64,000 nt of DNA, taken from assembly GCF_030269305.1 (NCBI RefSeq), contig NZ_BSTC01000010.1, positions 124,001 through 188,000 of the forward strand. Reading direction: 5' to 3'. How positions within the stretch are numbered: position 1 is the first letter of the stretch; the number at the start of each line of letters is the position of its first letter. The DNA is from Kineosporia sp. NBRC 101731 (GTDB lineage: Bacteria; Actinomycetota; Actinomycetes; Actinomycetales; Kineosporiaceae). The notes below the pieces were generated by a model. The model worked only from the letters and a program-made list of their open reading frames with translations, was not told where the DNA came from and searched no databases. Positions 53,778 to 64,000 of this stretch are shown in pieces. The translations under genes and the position numbers were made by a program.

Positions 53778-54716
53778 TCAAAGCGTCACCCCGTGGGCGG
53801 AATTCGGCGATACCTGAGGACCGGCGTCATCCTCCGGGCGGATACTCGCGGGCCGGGAGCCACCCGGTCGGCGGATGGCGACCACGGCAACCCCCAGGAG
53901 CAGCACCAGCCCGCCCAGCAGTTCGAACGGTCCCGGCTCCTCGTGTTGCACCAGCCAGGCCGTGATCAGCCCGACCACCGGAACCAGCAGGGTGAACGGC
54001 ACCACCTGGGCGGCGGTGTACTTGGCCAGCAGCGTGTTCCAGATGCCGTACCCGACCAGCGACGCGAGCACAGCGGTGTACAGCGTCGACGCCACGTTCC
54101 CGAGCGTGAGGTGGGTGAGCGCGTGGGTCACCTCGGCGAGCCCGTCGACCAGCAAGGAGAGAAGGACGAGGGGAACGGGCACCACGATCGCCGACCACAC
54201 CGTCATCGCGAGCCCGGACTTCACCGCGGCCCGGCGGCTCAGCACGTTTCCGCACGACCAGCTCAGCGCCGCGCAGACGGCCAGGGCCAGGCCGGGCAGA
54301 GGTGTCTCGGCGGACCGGCCGACCGCCACGACGACGAGCCCGATCGCACCCATGGCCACTCCGATCAGGGCCTTGAGGCCAGGTCGTTCACCCAGCACCC
54401 CGGCCGCGATCACCACGGTTCCGACCACCTGGGCCTGCACCACCAGGCTGGCGAGCCCGGCCGGCATGCCGGCGTCCAGCGACAGGTAGAGGAAGGCGAA
54501 CTGGCCCAGGCTGAGAAAGGTGCCGACCAGCAGCAGGGTGTGCCAGGGAACATCCGGCCGGGGCAGGAGGAACAACGCGGGGAGCAGCACCACGACGAAC
54601 CGCAGGGCGACGAACAGCAGAGGCGGGAATCCGGCCAGTCCTTCGTCGATGACGACGAAGTTCATGCCCCAGATCACTGTCACCAAGACAGCCAGGAACG
54701 AGTCGCGAGTGGTCAC
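53778..54716 (-). CDS. EamA/DMT-family exporter
   Basis: This 312-residue protein has ten hydrophobic helices in two EamA repeats. The first starts LAVLVTVIWGMNFVVIDEGL and the second LALAVCAALSWSCGNVLSRR; the end of the second repeat reads LVPVVGLITAWLVQHEEP. It exports amino acids or other metabolites. The GTG at 54716 begins the first helix. It is divergent from a LysR-type gene 72 bp away, the usual arrangement for a regulated exporter. It is 1.7 kb from the nicotianamine synthase-like gene; in Pseudomonas an EamA-type protein (CntI) exports pseudopaline, so a link is possible but unproven. Confidence 0.9.
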   Translation of the reverse strand: MTTRDSFLAVLVTVIWGMNFVVIDEGLAGFPPLLFVALRFVVVLLPALFLLPRPDVPWHTLLLVGTFLSLGQFAFLYLSLDAGMPAGLASLVVQAQVVGTVVIAAGVLGERPGLKALIGVAMGAIGLVVVAVGRSAETPLPGLALAVCAALSWSCGNVLSRRAAVKSGLAMTVWSAIVVPVPLVLLSLLVDGLAEVTHALTHLTLGNVASTLYTAVLASLVGYGIWNTLLAKYTAAQVVPFTLLVPVVGLITAWLVQHEEPGPFELLGGLVLLLGVAVVAIRRPGGSRPASIRPEDDAGPQVSPNSAHGVTL

Positions 54717-54788: not shown

Positions 54789-55715
54789 ATGATGGATCTG
54801 GTGGCGCTGCGCTCCCTGATCGCCGTCGACGTCCACGGTACGGTCGCGGCGGCCGCGAGCTCCGGTGGTTACACGCCGTCGGCGGTGTCGCAGCAGATCA
54901 AACGGCTGGAGAAGGATCTCGGGGCGGTCCTGCTGGAACGCGTCGGGCGTGGCGTCGTGCTGACCGAACAGGGGCGCACCCTGGTCAAGCACGGGCAGGG
55001 AATCCTGCGCCGGGTCGAGGCCGCGACTGCGGGCCTCAGCGCCGATCAGGGAGAACCGTCGGGGCCGTTGCGGATCGTCGCGTTCTCCACGGCCGTGCGC
55101 GGTCTGGTGGCGCCGCTGCTGGCCGACCTGGCCAGGACCAGTCCGGCGCTCGTGCCGGAGCTGTTCGAGCGTGACCCTTTCGAGGCACTCGACGCCGTGG
55201 CCGCCGGGCAGGCCGACATCGGGCTCGTGCATCACTGGGTGGGGGTGCCGCTGCACCGTCCTGAGTACGTCGCCGCGCAGCTCATCGGCTTCGACACGGC
55301 CGATCTGCTGGTGCATCGCGACCACCCGCTGGCCGGGGCGGAGGTGGTCACACCGGCCGACCTGGTCGACGAACCCTGGGCCTCCACCCCGGTCGGCACG
55401 ATCTGTCACGGCTGGTTCCTCTACATGTTCACCGGTTTCGCCCGTCCGCCGTCGGTCCGGTTCTGGTCGTTCGAGTTTGCCTCGCAGTTGCGCCTGGTGC
55501 AGGAAGGGGTCGCGGTGGCCCTGGTCCCCCGCCTGGGCCGGGGGGCGCTGCCCGACGGGGTGATCGCGGTGCCGGTCTCGGGTCCGGCCCCGACCCGGGT
55601 GATCGAGATGATCTGGCGGGACTCGATGTCCGCCAGTCCGGCCGTCCGGCACGTACGCGACCGGTGTGTCTCCGTCTTCGCCGACCATGCCGAGGTTTTC
55701 GACCCCTCACGCTGA
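54789..55715 (+). CDS. LysR-type transcriptional regulator
   Basis: This 308-residue protein has an N-terminal helix-turn-helix (LVALRSLIAVDVHGTVAAAA, TPSAVSQQIKRLEKDLG, LLERVGRGVVLTEQGR). The effector domain follows (PLRIVAFSTAVRGLVAPLL, GQADIGLVHHW, LVQEGVAVALVPRLG). It probably activates or represses the divergent EamA exporter. An ATG pair opens the gene (54789 and 54792); the first is used. Confidence 0.92.
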   Translation: MMDLVALRSLIAVDVHGTVAAAASSGGYTPSAVSQQIKRLEKDLGAVLLERVGRGVVLTEQGRTLVKHGQGILRRVEAATAGLSADQGEPSGPLRIVAFSTAVRGLVAPLLADLARTSPALVPELFERDPFEALDAVAAGQADIGLVHHWVGVPLHRPEYVAAQLIGFDTADLLVHRDHPLAGAEVVTPADLVDEPWASTPVGTICHGWFLYMFTGFARPPSVRFWSFEFASQLRLVQEGVAVALVPRLGRGALPDGVIAVPVSGPAPTRVIEMIWRDSMSASPAVRHVRDRCVSVFADHAEVFDPSR

Positions 55716-55730
55716 GCCCGTTACCGGCGG

Positions 55731-55749
55731 GTGAATGAGAGTCATTATC
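55731..55749 (-). promoter_or_regulatory. Fur/Zur-like metal box before the GNAT-NAS pair
   Basis: Read on the minus strand, the 19 bases GATAATGACTCTCATTCAC match the E. coli Fur consensus GATAATGATAATCATTATC at 14 of 19 positions. The core AATGA-GAG-TCATT is a perfect dyad. A possible -10 element TATGGT follows at 55761-55766, so a bound regulator would block transcription toward the GNAT and NAS-like genes. Whether iron (Fur) or zinc (Zur) is sensed cannot be told. Confidence 0.65.
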
Positions 55750-55832
55750 AAATCATCCGCTATGGTCTTTCGGCAGGCAGGCGTATGACAAGAGACCGAT
55801 GGCACTGACATTCGACGGGGGATGCGAAGATC

Positions 55833-56420
55833 ATGGGCGAGGTGGAGATCCGGGCGGCCGGGCCCGCGGACCTGGAAGGCGCGGCGGCGTGCATGCGTGA
55901 GGTGCTCGACCGCGACCTGGGCGGCTACCAGGAGCGCTGGCACCGCGACATCGACAACCTGGCGGCCGCCTATCTCGAGGCGCCCCGGGCCGCGCTGTTC
56001 GTCGCGGTCGGGTACGGCGACGGCGAGCAGAACGGCGAGCATGAGGGGCGCGTACTCGCGACGACCGCTGTGCGTCCCTGCCATCTGGTGTCGCCGCCGA
56101 ATCCGGAATGGCTCGCGGCCCGCTACAACGGCCCGGAGACCTGCCAGCTCGTGCGGGTCTGGGTGCGCTCGGCGGCCCGCCGTCGAGGGCTGGCCCGGCG
56201 ACTGGTGGCCGAGGCGTCCGCCTGGGCCACCGAGATGGCCGGGTACGAAACGGTCTACCTCCACACGGATGCGGGAGTGCCCGGTGCGGAGGCGTTCTGG
56301 CGCTCGATGCCGACTGTCGAGGTGTACGACGCCAGACCCGACCCGTTCAACACGGTGCATTTCGAGATCGACCTGCCGAAGTTCCTCGGACGACCGGGCA
56401 AGGAGGCAGAGCACCGGTGA
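55833..56420 (+). CDS. GNAT-family acetyltransferase, first gene of a metal-regulated pair
   Basis: This 195-residue protein has a GNAT motif A QLVRVWVRSAARRRGLARRL, then TVYLHTDAGVPGAEAFW and a short tail. The first 90 residues form the N-terminal GNAT part (IRAAGPADLEGAAACMREVL). The ATG at 55833 has a GGGGGA stretch upstream. Its TGA overlaps the start of the nicotianamine synthase-like gene, so the two are coupled and are likely repressed together through the box at 55731-55749. It may modify an amine of the metallophore or a precursor; that is inference. Confidence 0.82.
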   Translation: MGEVEIRAAGPADLEGAAACMREVLDRDLGGYQERWHRDIDNLAAAYLEAPRAALFVAVGYGDGEQNGEHEGRVLATTAVRPCHLVSPPNPEWLAARYNGPETCQLVRVWVRSAARRRGLARRLVAEASAWATEMAGYETVYLHTDAGVPGAEAFWRSMPTVEVYDARPDPFNTVHFEIDLPKFLGRPGKEAEHR

Positions 56421-57385
56421 TGCGGCGTGAAGGACAGGCCGAGGCCGGCACGGCCAGTACAGCCAGTACAGCCAGTACGGTCAGTACGGCCAGTACTTTC
56501 GGTAGCCGGATCGTCGCGGAGGCCGGTGATCTCGCCCTCCTGAACGACCGTACGGTCGACCAGGCCTACGCCGAGCAACTCGCGGGCCGCGTGGCCACCA
56601 TCTACGAAAGTCTGCGGAGGCAACCGGGGCTGGCCCCGTCCACCATGGTCGATCGGCTCTTCACCGAGCTCGTCGAACTGTGCGGCGACGACGGCGGCGA
56701 CCTGTCGCCGAGGGCGGCCCGGGTGCTGGGCGACGAACGCATCACCTCTCGTCTGGCCGGTCTGCACGAGCTGTGTGCCGAGGGTGAGTACCTGATGGAG
56801 ACCCATTGGTCACGCCGCATCGCCGTTGCCGACCGGCCGCTGGAGGTGCTCGAGCAGTTCCCGTACCTGGGCAACTACCGTGAACTGACCCGGCTGGAGA
56901 TCAACCTGCTGCGCTGCTTCGGCGTGGAACCCGGCAAGGCCCGGCGCATCTGCTTCCTCGGTGCGGGGCCGCTACCTCTCAGTGCGCTGTGCCTGTACGA
57001 CGAACTCGGGGTGCCGGTGGACGTCGTGGACCGGTCGGCCGAGGCCGTCGCCCTGGGGTCCGCCTGCGTGAACGCACTGATCGGTCAGGGCGCCGTACGT
57101 TTCCACCGGGCCGAGGCGGCGGAGTTCGAGCAGGTGGCCGACGCCGACGTGGTGGTGCTCGGGGCGCTGGCCGGGCTGGACCAGGAGGCCAAGAACGCCA
57201 TCCTGGCCTCGCTCTGGCAGCGGCTCGGTCCCGGTGCGGTGCTGCTGGTGCGCAGCGCAGCCGGGCTGAGGCGGCTGCTCTACCCGGCCGTGGGCACCCA
57301 TGACCTGAGTGGATGGGAGCAGCTCGGGGTGCTCCACCCGCTCAACGACGTCATCAATTCGGTGATCGTCCTGCGTCACCCGTAA
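56417..57385 (+). CDS. Nicotianamine synthase-like protein (metallophore aminobutanoyltransferase family)
   Basis: This 322-residue protein has the order of the NAS family. A helical N-terminal domain contains LFTELVELC and CAEGEYLMETHWSRRIA (about residue 124). A bridge reads FPYLGNYRELTRLEINLL. A methyltransferase-like Rossmann domain follows with FLGAGPLPLSALCLY (about 182), VDVVDRSAEAVALGSACV, DVVVLGALAGLDQEAKNAIL and LLVRSAAGLRRLLYP, ending HPLNDVINSVIVLR. Family members use S-adenosylmethionine as aminobutanoyl donor to make nicotianamine or opine metallophores. A 9-bp repeat gives an (AST)n N-terminal tail. AGGAGG lies 11 bp before the GTG at 56417; ATG 56420 is the alternative. The last 32 bp overlap the convergent amidohydrolase gene. 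Confidence 0.85.
   Translation: MMRREGQAEAGTASTASTASTVSTASTFGSRIVAEAGDLALLNDRTVDQAYAEQLAGRVATIYESLRRQPGLAPSTMVDRLFTELVELCGDDGGDLSPRAARVLGDERITSRLAGLHELCAEGEYLMETHWSRRIAVADRPLEVLEQFPYLGNYRELTRLEINLLRCFGVEPGKARRICFLGAGPLPLSALCLYDELGVPVDVVDRSAEAVALGSACVNALIGQGAVRFHRAEAAEFEQVADADVVVLGALAGLDQEAKNAILASLWQRLGPGAVLLVRSAAGLRRLLYPAVGTHDLSGWEQLGVLHPLNDVINSVIVLRHP
56456..56491. repeat. 9-bp tandem repeat (four units) at the NAS-like 5' end
   Basis: AGTACAGCC occurs twice, followed by AGTACGGTC and AGTACGGCC, in frame, encoding a Ser-Thr-Ala/Val tail before the folded domain. Confidence 0.88.
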
Positions 57386-58565
57386 TCGTCGTCCCGCGCA
57401 CGACCACGGTGCGTACCCGGGTCAGCGCGGTGATGTCGGCCCGGGGATCGCCGTCGACGACCAGGAGGTCGGCGTCGATACCCGGCCGCAGGCGTCCCTT
57501 CGTGAATTCCAGGCCGCAGGCCTGCGCCGATACCGAGGTGGCCGTGGCGATCGCGTCGTCCGTGGCGATCCCGGCCCCCACCAGTTCGGCCACGGCGTGT
57601 GCCACGATGCCGTGCGGTTTCGCGGCATGGATCCCCGCGTCGGAGCCGCTGATCACCGCAACGCCCTGCCGGTGCAGTTTCTCGACCTGAACGAAACGAT
57701 GGGCGGGCACCAGTCCGGTGCGTTGCGTGATCTCCTGCGCCTGCGCGGAGGGGCGGCTGCCGGGGATCCGCCCGAACGTCGGCCCGATATGAATCCCGCG
57801 ATCCCGCAGTCGGTCCGCGAGATCTGTCGGTGTCTGCACGCCGTTCGCCGTCAGGCAGGTGCAGTGCTCGATGCCTTTCACCCCGGTGTCGATGCAGAGA
57901 TTCACGGCATCCAGCGAGTGCGCGTGCGCGACCACCGGAAGGCCGTGGTGGTCGGCGCGTTCCACTACCAGAGCGAGGTCCTCGGCGGAGTACTGCAACG
58001 ACAGCAGATCCGACCCCGGCGTCATCGCGCCACCACTGACGACGATTTTCACCAGTGGTGCACCCCGTTCGGCCCGTTCATCCACCGCGGCGACCAGATC
58101 GGCAGCACCCGCGGCCTCTCCGCCCATCGCCGCGCAGTGCCCGCCCGGTGTCGTGATCGGAGGCCCCGACGCCACCACGGCCGGTTCCCCGCGCGACGAG
58201 ACCCGTTCCAGCACGGACCAGCGGTTGTCGCCGAGGTCCCGCACGGTGGTCACCCCGGCCCGGGCGTGGGCGAGCAACGACTCCCGTACCACCCGCTCCC
58301 GCTCGTCACCGGAGCGGTGCACGTCCCGCCCCAGGGCCCCGTCCCGCCCGTCCGCGATCAGGTGCACATGGGTGTCGATGAGCCCCGGCAGCAACGTTCC
58401 ACCGTCATGCCGCCGAACCTCGAAACCCTCGGGAACAGGCCTCTGACCAGTGCTGACGCCGATAATCGACGAACCCTCGGTGAAGACGGTCGCGCCGTCG
58501 GGCAGAAACCGTTCCCCGTCGAAGGCCAGTGCTGCGATGTGTGCGACACGCTCCGGACTCGGCAT
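57354..58565 (-). CDS. Amidohydrolase (imidazolonepropionase/Xaa-Pro dipeptidase-like)
   Basis: This 403-residue metal-dependent TIM-barrel hydrolase has the HxH metal site in LLPGLIDTHVHLIADG, Lys in PLVKIVVSGGAMTPGSD, His in VVAHAHSLDAV and GIEHCTCL, and Asp in VISGSDAGIHA. The C-terminal beta region reads KGRLRPGIDADLLVVDGDP. It likely cleaves a dipeptide or cyclic amide in the cytoplasm. The ATG at 58565 is used; a TTG-ATG at 58601/58598 would add 11-12 residues, and both have weak ribosome-binding sites. Its 3' end overlaps the convergent NAS-like gene by 32 bp. Confidence 0.88.
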   Translation of the reverse strand: MPSPERVAHIAALAFDGERFLPDGATVFTEGSSIIGVSTGQRPVPEGFEVRRHDGGTLLPGLIDTHVHLIADGRDGALGRDVHRSGDERERVVRESLLAHARAGVTTVRDLGDNRWSVLERVSSRGEPAVVASGPPITTPGGHCAAMGGEAAGAADLVAAVDERAERGAPLVKIVVSGGAMTPGSDLLSLQYSAEDLALVVERADHHGLPVVAHAHSLDAVNLCIDTGVKGIEHCTCLTANGVQTPTDLADRLRDRGIHIGPTFGRIPGSRPSAQAQEITQRTGLVPAHRFVQVEKLHRQGVAVISGSDAGIHAAKPHGIVAHAVAELVGAGIATDDAIATATSVSAQACGLEFTKGRLRPGIDADLLVVDGDPRADITALTRVRTVVVRGTTITGDAGRSPN

Positions 58566-58652
58566 GGAATTCAGTCTCGTACCGGTGCGTACCGTCATCA
58601 AGTGCTCACATCGTGATGATGGCCATGGTTGCGCGTGCCGAGTGCGTGGGGG

Positions 58653-63352: not shown

Positions 63353-64000
63353 ATGCGTGATGACGTGCTCCCCGAGGCCGTGCGTGAGCGTGCGCTCGCC
63401 CTGGCCGCGGAGAACCAGCTCCCGGCCTATCTCTACGACCTGGCCGCCCTGCGCTCGCAGGCCGCTGCGATCCGCGACGCGCTCGCGGGGGCCGGGGTCG
63501 AGTTCCTCTACGCCGCCAAGGCCAACCCCGACCCGGCGCTCCTGCGCGTGATCGCGCCGCTGACCGACGGCATCGAGGTGGCCTCCGGCGGCGAGCTGGA
63601 GCACGTGATGGACGCCGCGCCCGGAGCTCGCGTGGCGTTCGGCGGCCCGGGCAAGACCGACCGGGAACTGATGGCCGCGATCGGCCGGGGTGTCTGGCGC
63701 CTGCACGTGGAGAGCGTGCGGGAGCTGAACCGGGTGATCGCGCTTGCCGGTCGACGTCCCGTCGACGTATTGCTGCGGGCCAACCTGCCCTTCGGGGTGA
63801 GCGGAGCGGCGCTGACGATGAGCGGGCCCTTCGGGATGGACGAGGAAACGCTCGCCGTCGCCGCCCGCACGGCCCGGGACGCCGCGGCCGCCGGTAGTGG
63901 GGTGAGGGTGCGCGGTCTCCACGTGCACCTGGCCTCCGGACTGGACGCCGGTCAGAAGCTGGCGCTCGACGGGCGCGTGCTGGCCTGGGCCCGGTGCTGG
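63353..64000 (+). CDS. LysA-type PLP-dependent decarboxylase, N-terminal half only
   Basis: 216 codons are visible, and the frame runs off the right edge. The fold-type III signature is clear: PAYLYDLAALRSQAAAIRDA, then FLYAAKANPDPALLRVIAP (PLP Lys), DGIEVASGGELEHVMDA, ARVAFGGPGKTDRELMAAI and VRGLHVHLASGLD. It belongs to the diaminopimelate/ornithine decarboxylase group. The short KANP motif and lack of a neighbouring lysine operon gene are closer to siderophore-type members such as SbnH, but the specificity part is not visible. The ATG at 63353 has no strong ribosome-binding site. Confidence 0.8.
   Translation, partial: MRDDVLPEAVRERALALAAENQLPAYLYDLAALRSQAAAIRDALAGAGVEFLYAAKANPDPALLRVIAPLTDGIEVASGGELEHVMDAAPGARVAFGGPGKTDRELMAAIGRGVWRLHVESVRELNRVIALAGRRPVDVLLRANLPFGVSGAALTMSGPFGMDEETLAVAARTARDAAAAGSGVRVRGLHVHLASGLDAGQKLALDGRVLAWARCW

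Follow-up and report, generated by a model that had tools for sequence, protein, structure and literature searches.

What does a nicotianamine synthase (NAS) do in a bacterium, and what is an acetyltransferase doing in the same operon? Nicotianamine is a zinc and iron carrier of plants. The question is raised by a locus at 55731-57385 of the window, i.e. the whole 64,000-nucleotide stretch of Kineosporia sp. NBRC 101731 analyzed here (contig NZ_BSTC01000010.1, forward strand, 124,001 to 188,000), where a short metal-type box is followed by genes for a GNAT-family acetyltransferase and a NAS. We consider a zinc-controlled NAS operon highly likely. Judged from its sequence, the unit is real and conserved and appears to be under zinc-type regulation, and an acetylated product is a good hypothesis rather than a result.

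A conserved pair of coupled genes

The unit consists of four elements:

55736-55750, plus strand: putative Zur-type box TGAGAGTCATTATCA, ending 82 bp upstream of the GNAT start and overlapping the -35 region
55761-55766, plus strand: putative -10-like element TATGGT, from the alignment (TAT[G/C]GT in 6/6 Kineosporia species)
55833-56420, plus strand: GNAT acetyltransferase of 195 amino acids (Pfam Acetyltransf_1, E 1.3e-10)
56417-57385, plus strand: NAS (PF03059), its GTG start overlapping the GNAT stop

As evidenced by a GTGA overlap of the NAS start with the GNAT stop in all six Kineosporia species, the genes are translationally coupled, which the sequence-only reading had already proposed. 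Because this overlap is invariant in the six genomes, GTG 56417 is the most probable NAS start, with an alternative ATG one codon downstream (56420). Box and gene pair are both conserved in relatives (6/6 genus members), and the -10-like element is kept just downstream of the box in each species. When the six species are aligned, 19 of the 20 columns at 55731-55750 are invariant, whereas the remaining intergenic sequence has only 20 invariant columns of 97. The GNAT is 75-90% identical to that of five other Kineosporia, while the best NAS segments shared with named relatives reach 92% (K. mesophila), 81% (K. babensis) and 74% identity (K. rhizophila).

Identity of the synthase

The NAS profile PF03059 covers residues 51-319 of the second protein with 185.8 bits (curated cut-off 27.1) and fits far better than a generic methyltransferase profile. 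The predicted fold is likewise that of a NAS rather than of a generic methyltransferase and is shared with the thermonicotianamine synthase MtNAS and with CntL of the opine metallophore clusters; model confidence is low for the first ~40 residues. LMETHW, FPYLGNY, FLGAGPLPLS and HPLNDVINSVIVLR, the motifs whose order had suggested a nicotianamine synthase, are all found in the translation. A short repeat at 56450-56497, encoding TASTASTASTVSTAST in the low-confidence N-terminus, is missing in the closest relative K. mesophila.

Residues were compared over 32 of the 34 NAS loci, leaving out L048 and L049 (halves of one gene); alignment A1 holds 26 of the 34 NAS loci and alignment A2 16 GNAT rows. 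The catalytic Glu/Tyr occur as E127 and Y153 in all 32 rows, corresponding to E77/Y106 in AtNAS1 and to E81/Y107 in MtNAS, whose roles are given in the available part of PMC10491745. By spacing, E123 (32/32 rows) matches AtNAS1 E73, and the position of AtNAS1 206-VGMD-209 reads AGLD in the window's NAS and begins with [AV]G in 32/32 rows; this spacing comes from the numbering in the accessible text of PMC10248798. The predicted product of the unit is very probably the plant metal carrier nicotianamine, which would be made from three molecules of S-adenosylmethionine, and we regard nicotianamine or a close analogue as likely.

Alternatively, the enzyme could use a starter amino acid like CntL or MtNAS, with the GNAT finishing the molecule. 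The fold common to both and the catalytic pair common to MtNAS (roles again from the available part of PMC10491745) are compatible with such a different chelator, but E123 and [AV]G are each present in 32/32 rows and both missing in MtNAS, the genome has no CntM, and no racemase was recognized among the neighbors, where no profile search was aimed at racemases. We give this alternative little chance.

That the locus has no opine dehydrogenase had been noted before and extends to the whole genome, as PF10100 (CntM) found no match there and thus none directly downstream of NAS. Controls of this search were silent; it was repeated at class level, where the model gave a match in 1/388 genomes (CntM, E 7e-196). 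The NCBIfam CntL model (NF033601) scores the NAS protein at 18.5 bits against a cut-off of 350. Of the proposed NAS-like kinship, the NAS identity stands and the resemblance to CntL, by profile, does not. The sole CntM among the 388 class genomes is found at L200 (genome G249, contig C138). It is accompanied by what look by eye like CntL and racemase genes, by FecBCD-type importers and by a gene of the major facilitator superfamily (MFS), and second copies of ribosomal protein genes lie a few kb away.

A box of the zinc type

The box had been described as a Fur box over a promoter. A real, conserved metal-type box does overlap the -35 region, and 55731-55749 agree with the E. coli Fur consensus (counted by eye) at 15 of 19 positions, 14 in an earlier count; it fits Zur (zinc), not Fur. 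The iron reading was dropped and the box is read as Zur because the same motif stands at zinc-type genes of the genome; the profile of the Fur-family regulator at L124 (see below) does not decide.

The box is no chance hit: with up to 3 mismatches, the 17-mer AATGAGAGTCATTATCA occurs once in the window and not at all in 100 shuffles. We built a matrix from seven other sites of the genome, picked by gene context and leaving out the NAS box; it ranks the box first in the window with 23.2 bits. The next match (17.6 bits) sits inside the amidohydrolase gene downstream of NAS, and scores of 16-18 can be chance. The box TGAGAGTCATTATCA is also one mismatch from the S. coelicolor Zur motif tGaNNatSatNNtCa (PMC5472717, available part). 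At one mismatch this motif has 3 window matches (42883, 55736 and 58037) versus 0.16 expected, only 55736 being at the GNAT-NAS promoter; alone, the published motif is less sharp than the genome-derived tests.

A genome scan for the box (≤2 mismatches) yielded 38 matches versus 2 for the backward pattern, and 35 of them were examined for context (L121-L150, L152, L156 and L157). One box (L153) is flanked by the ribosomal protein genes L28 and S14 and, in the opposite direction, by a COG0523-type GTPase with type-B L31; others are found at an AztC operon (L154) and at a znuACB-like zinc/manganese-type binding protein with ABC genes (L156). A further one is at a Fur-family regulator beside glyS and uppS (L124), which we take to be zur from this neighborhood, NCBIfam not deciding. 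Two more precede an Opp/Nik-type binding-protein operon (one) and a non-ribosomal peptide synthetase (NRPS) gene (one) in a coelibactin-resembling cluster (L151, L152). Many of the remaining matches lie inside genes and are chance-like; only those at recognizable zinc or metallophore genes are named. Among the boxed genes, L28, S14, type-B L31, AztC, salicylate synthase and thiazolinyl imide reductase exceed their NCBIfam cut-offs, and the COG0523-type GTPase, the zinc/manganese-type binding protein and the Fur-family regulator stay below. Zur would repress the unit and zinc starvation would induce it.

The NRPS cluster on contig C12 (L151, L152) is coelibactin-like: it encodes salicylate synthase and thiazolinyl imide reductase as well as an Opp/Nik-type importer, and it contains three Zur-type boxes. 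Coelibactin is a Zur-repressed zincophore (PMC5472717, available part), and the genome may make two zincophores.

Distribution of box and synthase

NAS was found in 11/13 genomes of the family Kineosporiaceae, 15/396 of the order and 23/394 of the class. The published Zur motif (≤1 mismatch) was counted at 33 of the 34 NAS loci (L048 left out), with 32 matches in 28 kb upstream of NAS versus 25 in 492 kb elsewhere. It lies upstream of NAS in 30/33, the exceptions being L039, whose contig ends in the GNAT gene, L047 and L069. Three later loci (L196-L198) stand outside both this count and the 32-row alignment. None has the published motif upstream at 1 mismatch; L197 has it at 2 mismatches (21.1 bits by matrix). 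The 20 loci of family f28 (L050-L067, L070, L071) are not 20 independent witnesses, because they share nearly one box sequence, the almost invariant TGAACATGA[GA]TCTCA. Separate groups with a NAS box are Kineosporia, genus g143, f28, L068 and L197.

The acetyltransferase and its partners

The GNAT is fixed beside NAS, as had been claimed, in 6/6 Kineosporia. L039, representing a second genus of the same family, has the pair too: 55 GNAT residues are left at the contig end with 64% identity, and the same amidohydrolase lies on the other side of NAS. Since L039 groups in the NAS tree with g143, a genus without the GNAT, either an ancestor of the family may have had the pair, with later loss, or the pair may have arisen on two occasions. 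The convergent GNAT at L069, beside an aldehyde dehydrogenase and 37-40% identical, may be of a different lineage. GNATs are abundant and NAS occurs without one in two other family genera (g140, g143), which would suit an incidental pairing, i.e. an unrelated acetyltransferase on a promoter shared with NAS; the GTGA overlap invariant in 6/6, the pair in a second genus and the zinc and transporter context of the GNAT homologues make this barely credible.

In f28, the NAS partner is an ATP-grasp enzyme whose C-terminal domain, in the one member scanned, is of the L-amino-acid-ligase type, and this ligase is a second fixed NAS partner.

Profile, fold (AlphaFold mean predicted local distance difference test score 91) and an acetyl-CoA-type loop (R116-R-R-G-L-A121) all identify the first protein as a GNAT. 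Matches to it were obtained in 125/394 genomes, mostly short and weak, with strong ones (E 1.5e-26 or better) in 17 besides the window's own. Gene context was counted at 17 of 19 GNAT loci (L119 and L120, 33% identity, left out). A NikA-type binding protein with NikB/NikC permease parts is present at 11, an MFS transporter at 11, and at least one of these or an ABC ATPase at all 17. The same transporter genes are found at the 34 NAS loci as binding protein plus MFS in 1 (L068) and as ATPase in 3, and at none of seven control stretches, which are few and all from the window's genome. A typical operon (L105) consists of GNAT, binding protein, fused NikBC and MFS; the nearest NCBIfam models are nickel types, below cut-off.

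Zur-type boxes recur at these operons. Matrix matches of ≥16 bits stand just before the GNAT, or in the gap between GNAT and binding protein, at 9 GNAT loci (9.7 kb in total) versus 1 in the other 210 kb, and this lone outside match heads a run of COG0523-type GTPase, S18, Nik-type ABC and GNAT genes in L103. There is no good box at the GNAT operon in 7/17 loci, and the stricter published motif is found there in 6/19. Eleven loci (L104, L105, L107, L108, L110-L112 and L114-L117) combine GNAT, NikA-type binding protein, fused NikB-NikC and mostly MFS, with a Zur-type box by matrix in 9/11, in genomes without a listed NAS match. L068 links the NAS loci with the GNAT-importer operons, as its NAS lies next to the same binding protein (47%) and MFS (52%).

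The GNAT could work on the uptake side, acetylating the apo-chelator after zinc release in the cytosol and blocking rebinding, with the acetylated ligand discarded or exported; the ligand would be the cell's own nicotianamine in Kineosporia and imported ligands elsewhere. The commonest GNAT context, an importer operon without synthase, and the arrangement at L068 both point in this direction. Fresh nicotianamine in the same cytosol would, however, be acetylated too, and no importer was recognized adjoining the Kineosporia pair. We regard an uptake-side role as unlikely.

Yeast Mpr1 acetylates the toxic proline analogue azetidine-2-carboxylate (AZE) and offers a precedent for self-protection, in which NAS would leak AZE and the GNAT would acetylate it. 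Among PDB sequences, the one closest to the GNAT belongs to a toxin-resistance acetyltransferase, a weak match (E 0.1), and AZE-synthase loci with N-acetyltransferases and drug/metabolite transporters are reported in the available part of PMC11794875. In most cases members of the GNAT family are found with metal-type importers and Zur-type boxes but no NAS, which such detoxification leaves unexplained, and 20/20 f28 NAS loci have no such GNAT adjacent; self-protection appears distinctly unlikely.

At L113 (733-7029), the GNAT is divergent from an ATP-grasp gene (44% to the f28 NAS partner), an SbnA-like synthase, an enolase-like gene (by eye) and an MFS gene, and this looks like another metallophore locus. 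The window's genome has a pair of SbnA-like and MFS genes at L178 (6577-9128).

A proposed route to an acetylated zinc carrier

When zinc is scarce, Zur would leave the box at 55736, and GNAT and NAS would be made from one coupled message. NAS would take aminocarboxypropyl groups from S-adenosylmethionine and link them into nicotianamine or a closely related compound, and the GNAT, with acetyl-CoA, would acetylate an amine of the chelator or of its precursor to give an N-acetylated nicotianamine-type zinc carrier, whose transporters would be encoded elsewhere. Gene identities, coupling, zinc-type box, conservation and GNAT-family context are supported by the sequence; from these we infer that the NAS product would be acetylated, secreted and taken up again. 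N-acetylation of the product is plausible. It is somewhat probable that the GNAT modifies the chelator at one stage or another, and a Zur-repressed zincophore unit yielding this carrier is close to an even bet. That the acetylated form is the product made, not a trapping or release step, is possible but open to doubt. Acetylation during chelator making is rated a little above trapping after uptake because the Kineosporia GNAT is fixed to a synthase, not to an importer.

Several findings weigh against this proposal. NAS lacks a good box at L047, L069, L196 and L198, and such an adjacent GNAT in g143, L047 (g140), L068 and L196-L198; in f28 the ATP-grasp ligase follows NAS in 20/20 loci. NAS therefore has no general need of a GNAT. 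The VGMD of AtNAS1 is AGLD in the window's NAS. The L124 regulator is not named Zur by any NCBIfam equivalog: the Zur model reaches 52 bits (cut-off 167), and the Fur models score higher without passing their cut-offs. The zinc reading thus depends on the remaining genes that carry the box. The GNAT fold is generic, and a fold search aimed at the class of acyl acceptor returned only generic GNATs, which allows no substrate call. The usual importer context of the GNAT family favors trapping after uptake, and the ligand typical of the family may be something other than nicotianamine, as 16/17 homologue loci are in genomes without a listed NAS match, the remaining genome having its NAS on another contig. 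The binding protein and MFS of the GNAT operons are found at only 1/34 NAS loci (L068).

No metallophore importer or exporter was recognized beside the Kineosporia pair; within ~7 kb the transporters recognized are EamA and a CydDC-like ABC protein beside cydAB (the latter by eye), neither metallophore-typical. On C11, the nearest counterpart of the L068 importer (48% identity) is without a Zur-type box. In the 19-20 kb stretches holding its binding protein and the MFS most similar to that of L068 (C20), no matrix match exceeds 14.1 bits. A distant Opp/Nik-type binding-protein operon on C12 (24% to the L068 binding protein) follows a box, but inside the NRPS cluster.

Across Actinobacteria, we can only tentatively suggest a modular Zur zincophore system in which interchangeable partners (a GNAT in Kineosporia, an ATP-grasp ligase in another family) process nicotianamine-type chelators. 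The GNAT would then be an acetyltransferase devoted to zincophores, found also in Nik/Cnt-type importer operons, and would either finish the chelator or trap it chemically after import, keeping the zinc inside the cell. If the proposal holds, a zinc-switched NAS tied to an acetyltransferase would reveal the role of NAS in bacteria, and it would point to an N-acetylated zincophore and an acetylation step in metallophore handling, encoded by two small genes. The conserved pairing with a zinc-type switch in the genus hints at a new branch of bacterial zinc scavengers.

Neighboring genes

The unit is flanked by the following genes:

53778-54716, minus strand: EamA transporter, divergent to the LysR gene (Pfam EamA)
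54789-55715, plus strand: LysR-type regulator upstream of the box (Pfam; syntenic in 6/6 Kineosporia)
57354-58601, minus strand: amidohydrolase, convergent with NAS, start codon uncertain (Pfam Amidohydro_1)

EamA had been suggested as a CntI-like outlet for the product, and this found no support, as the gene has no specific tie to the unit. It is divergent from the LysR gene, its nearest model is the NCBIfam O-acetylserine/cysteine exporter PRK11453 (222.7 bits, below the cut-off of 472), and among the NAS loci its cluster is confined to the six Kineosporia loci, where neighbor genes are largely syntenic. The LysR regulator probably goes with EamA, outside the zinc unit. The amidohydrolase is close to NAS in 6/6 Kineosporia (~4 kb off in one) and in the second genus (L039). 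Its nearest model is an Xaa-Pro dipeptidase (161 bits, cut-off 500), and, accompanying NAS in two genera, it is a possible chelator turnover enzyme. An open reading frame judged by eye to resemble pyridoxal-phosphate decarboxylases occupies 63353-64000 and continues in L159 (1354-2541).

Comparison with known systems

Some actinobacteria have NAS according to PMC12454661 (available part), which roots its NAS tree with Actinobacteria, gives the moss TetNAS a bacterial origin and finds the metabolite of moss and of flowering plants to be identical. With the PF03059 NAS of plants, fungi and Actinobacteria, the Kineosporia enzyme shares the family score and the catalytic Glu/Tyr and, judged by spacing, may share residues tied to nicotianamine makers. 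It differs from them in its setting, a Zur-type box followed by a unit of two genes of which the other is a GNAT, an arrangement that does not appear in the accessible text of PMC12454661. MtNAS has neither an E123 equivalent nor the four-residue stretch at 252-255 (alignment).

The sequence-only reading had called the combination undescribed, which is too strong, as the available part of PMC7438024 reports acetyltransferases in CntL/CntM clusters. Because CntM was the search handle there, units without CntM lie outside its view. Neither a GNAT-NAS unit lacking CntM nor acetyl-nicotianamine came up in a literature search with little coverage of subscription journals. The cntKLM clusters for opine zincophores (staphylopine, pseudopaline, bacillopaline) resemble the unit in the NAS-type fold, the zinc link and an occasional acetyltransferase (PMC7438024, same part), whereas the Kineosporia genome is without CntM, and no racemase or metallophore transporters were recognized beside the pair.

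The AZE synthases AzeJ and VioH share chemistry from S-adenosylmethionine to azetidine, and their loci contain N-acetyltransferase and ATP-grasp genes (PMC11794875, available part). Neither is among the PDB matches listed for the NAS protein by phmmer (to E 10) or in the 50 fold rows, and they may be distant kin. In f28, as in Kineosporia, an actinobacterial NAS stands behind a Zur-type box with one fixed partner, which is a downstream, L-amino-acid-ligase-like ATP-grasp enzyme in f28 and an upstream GNAT in Kineosporia.
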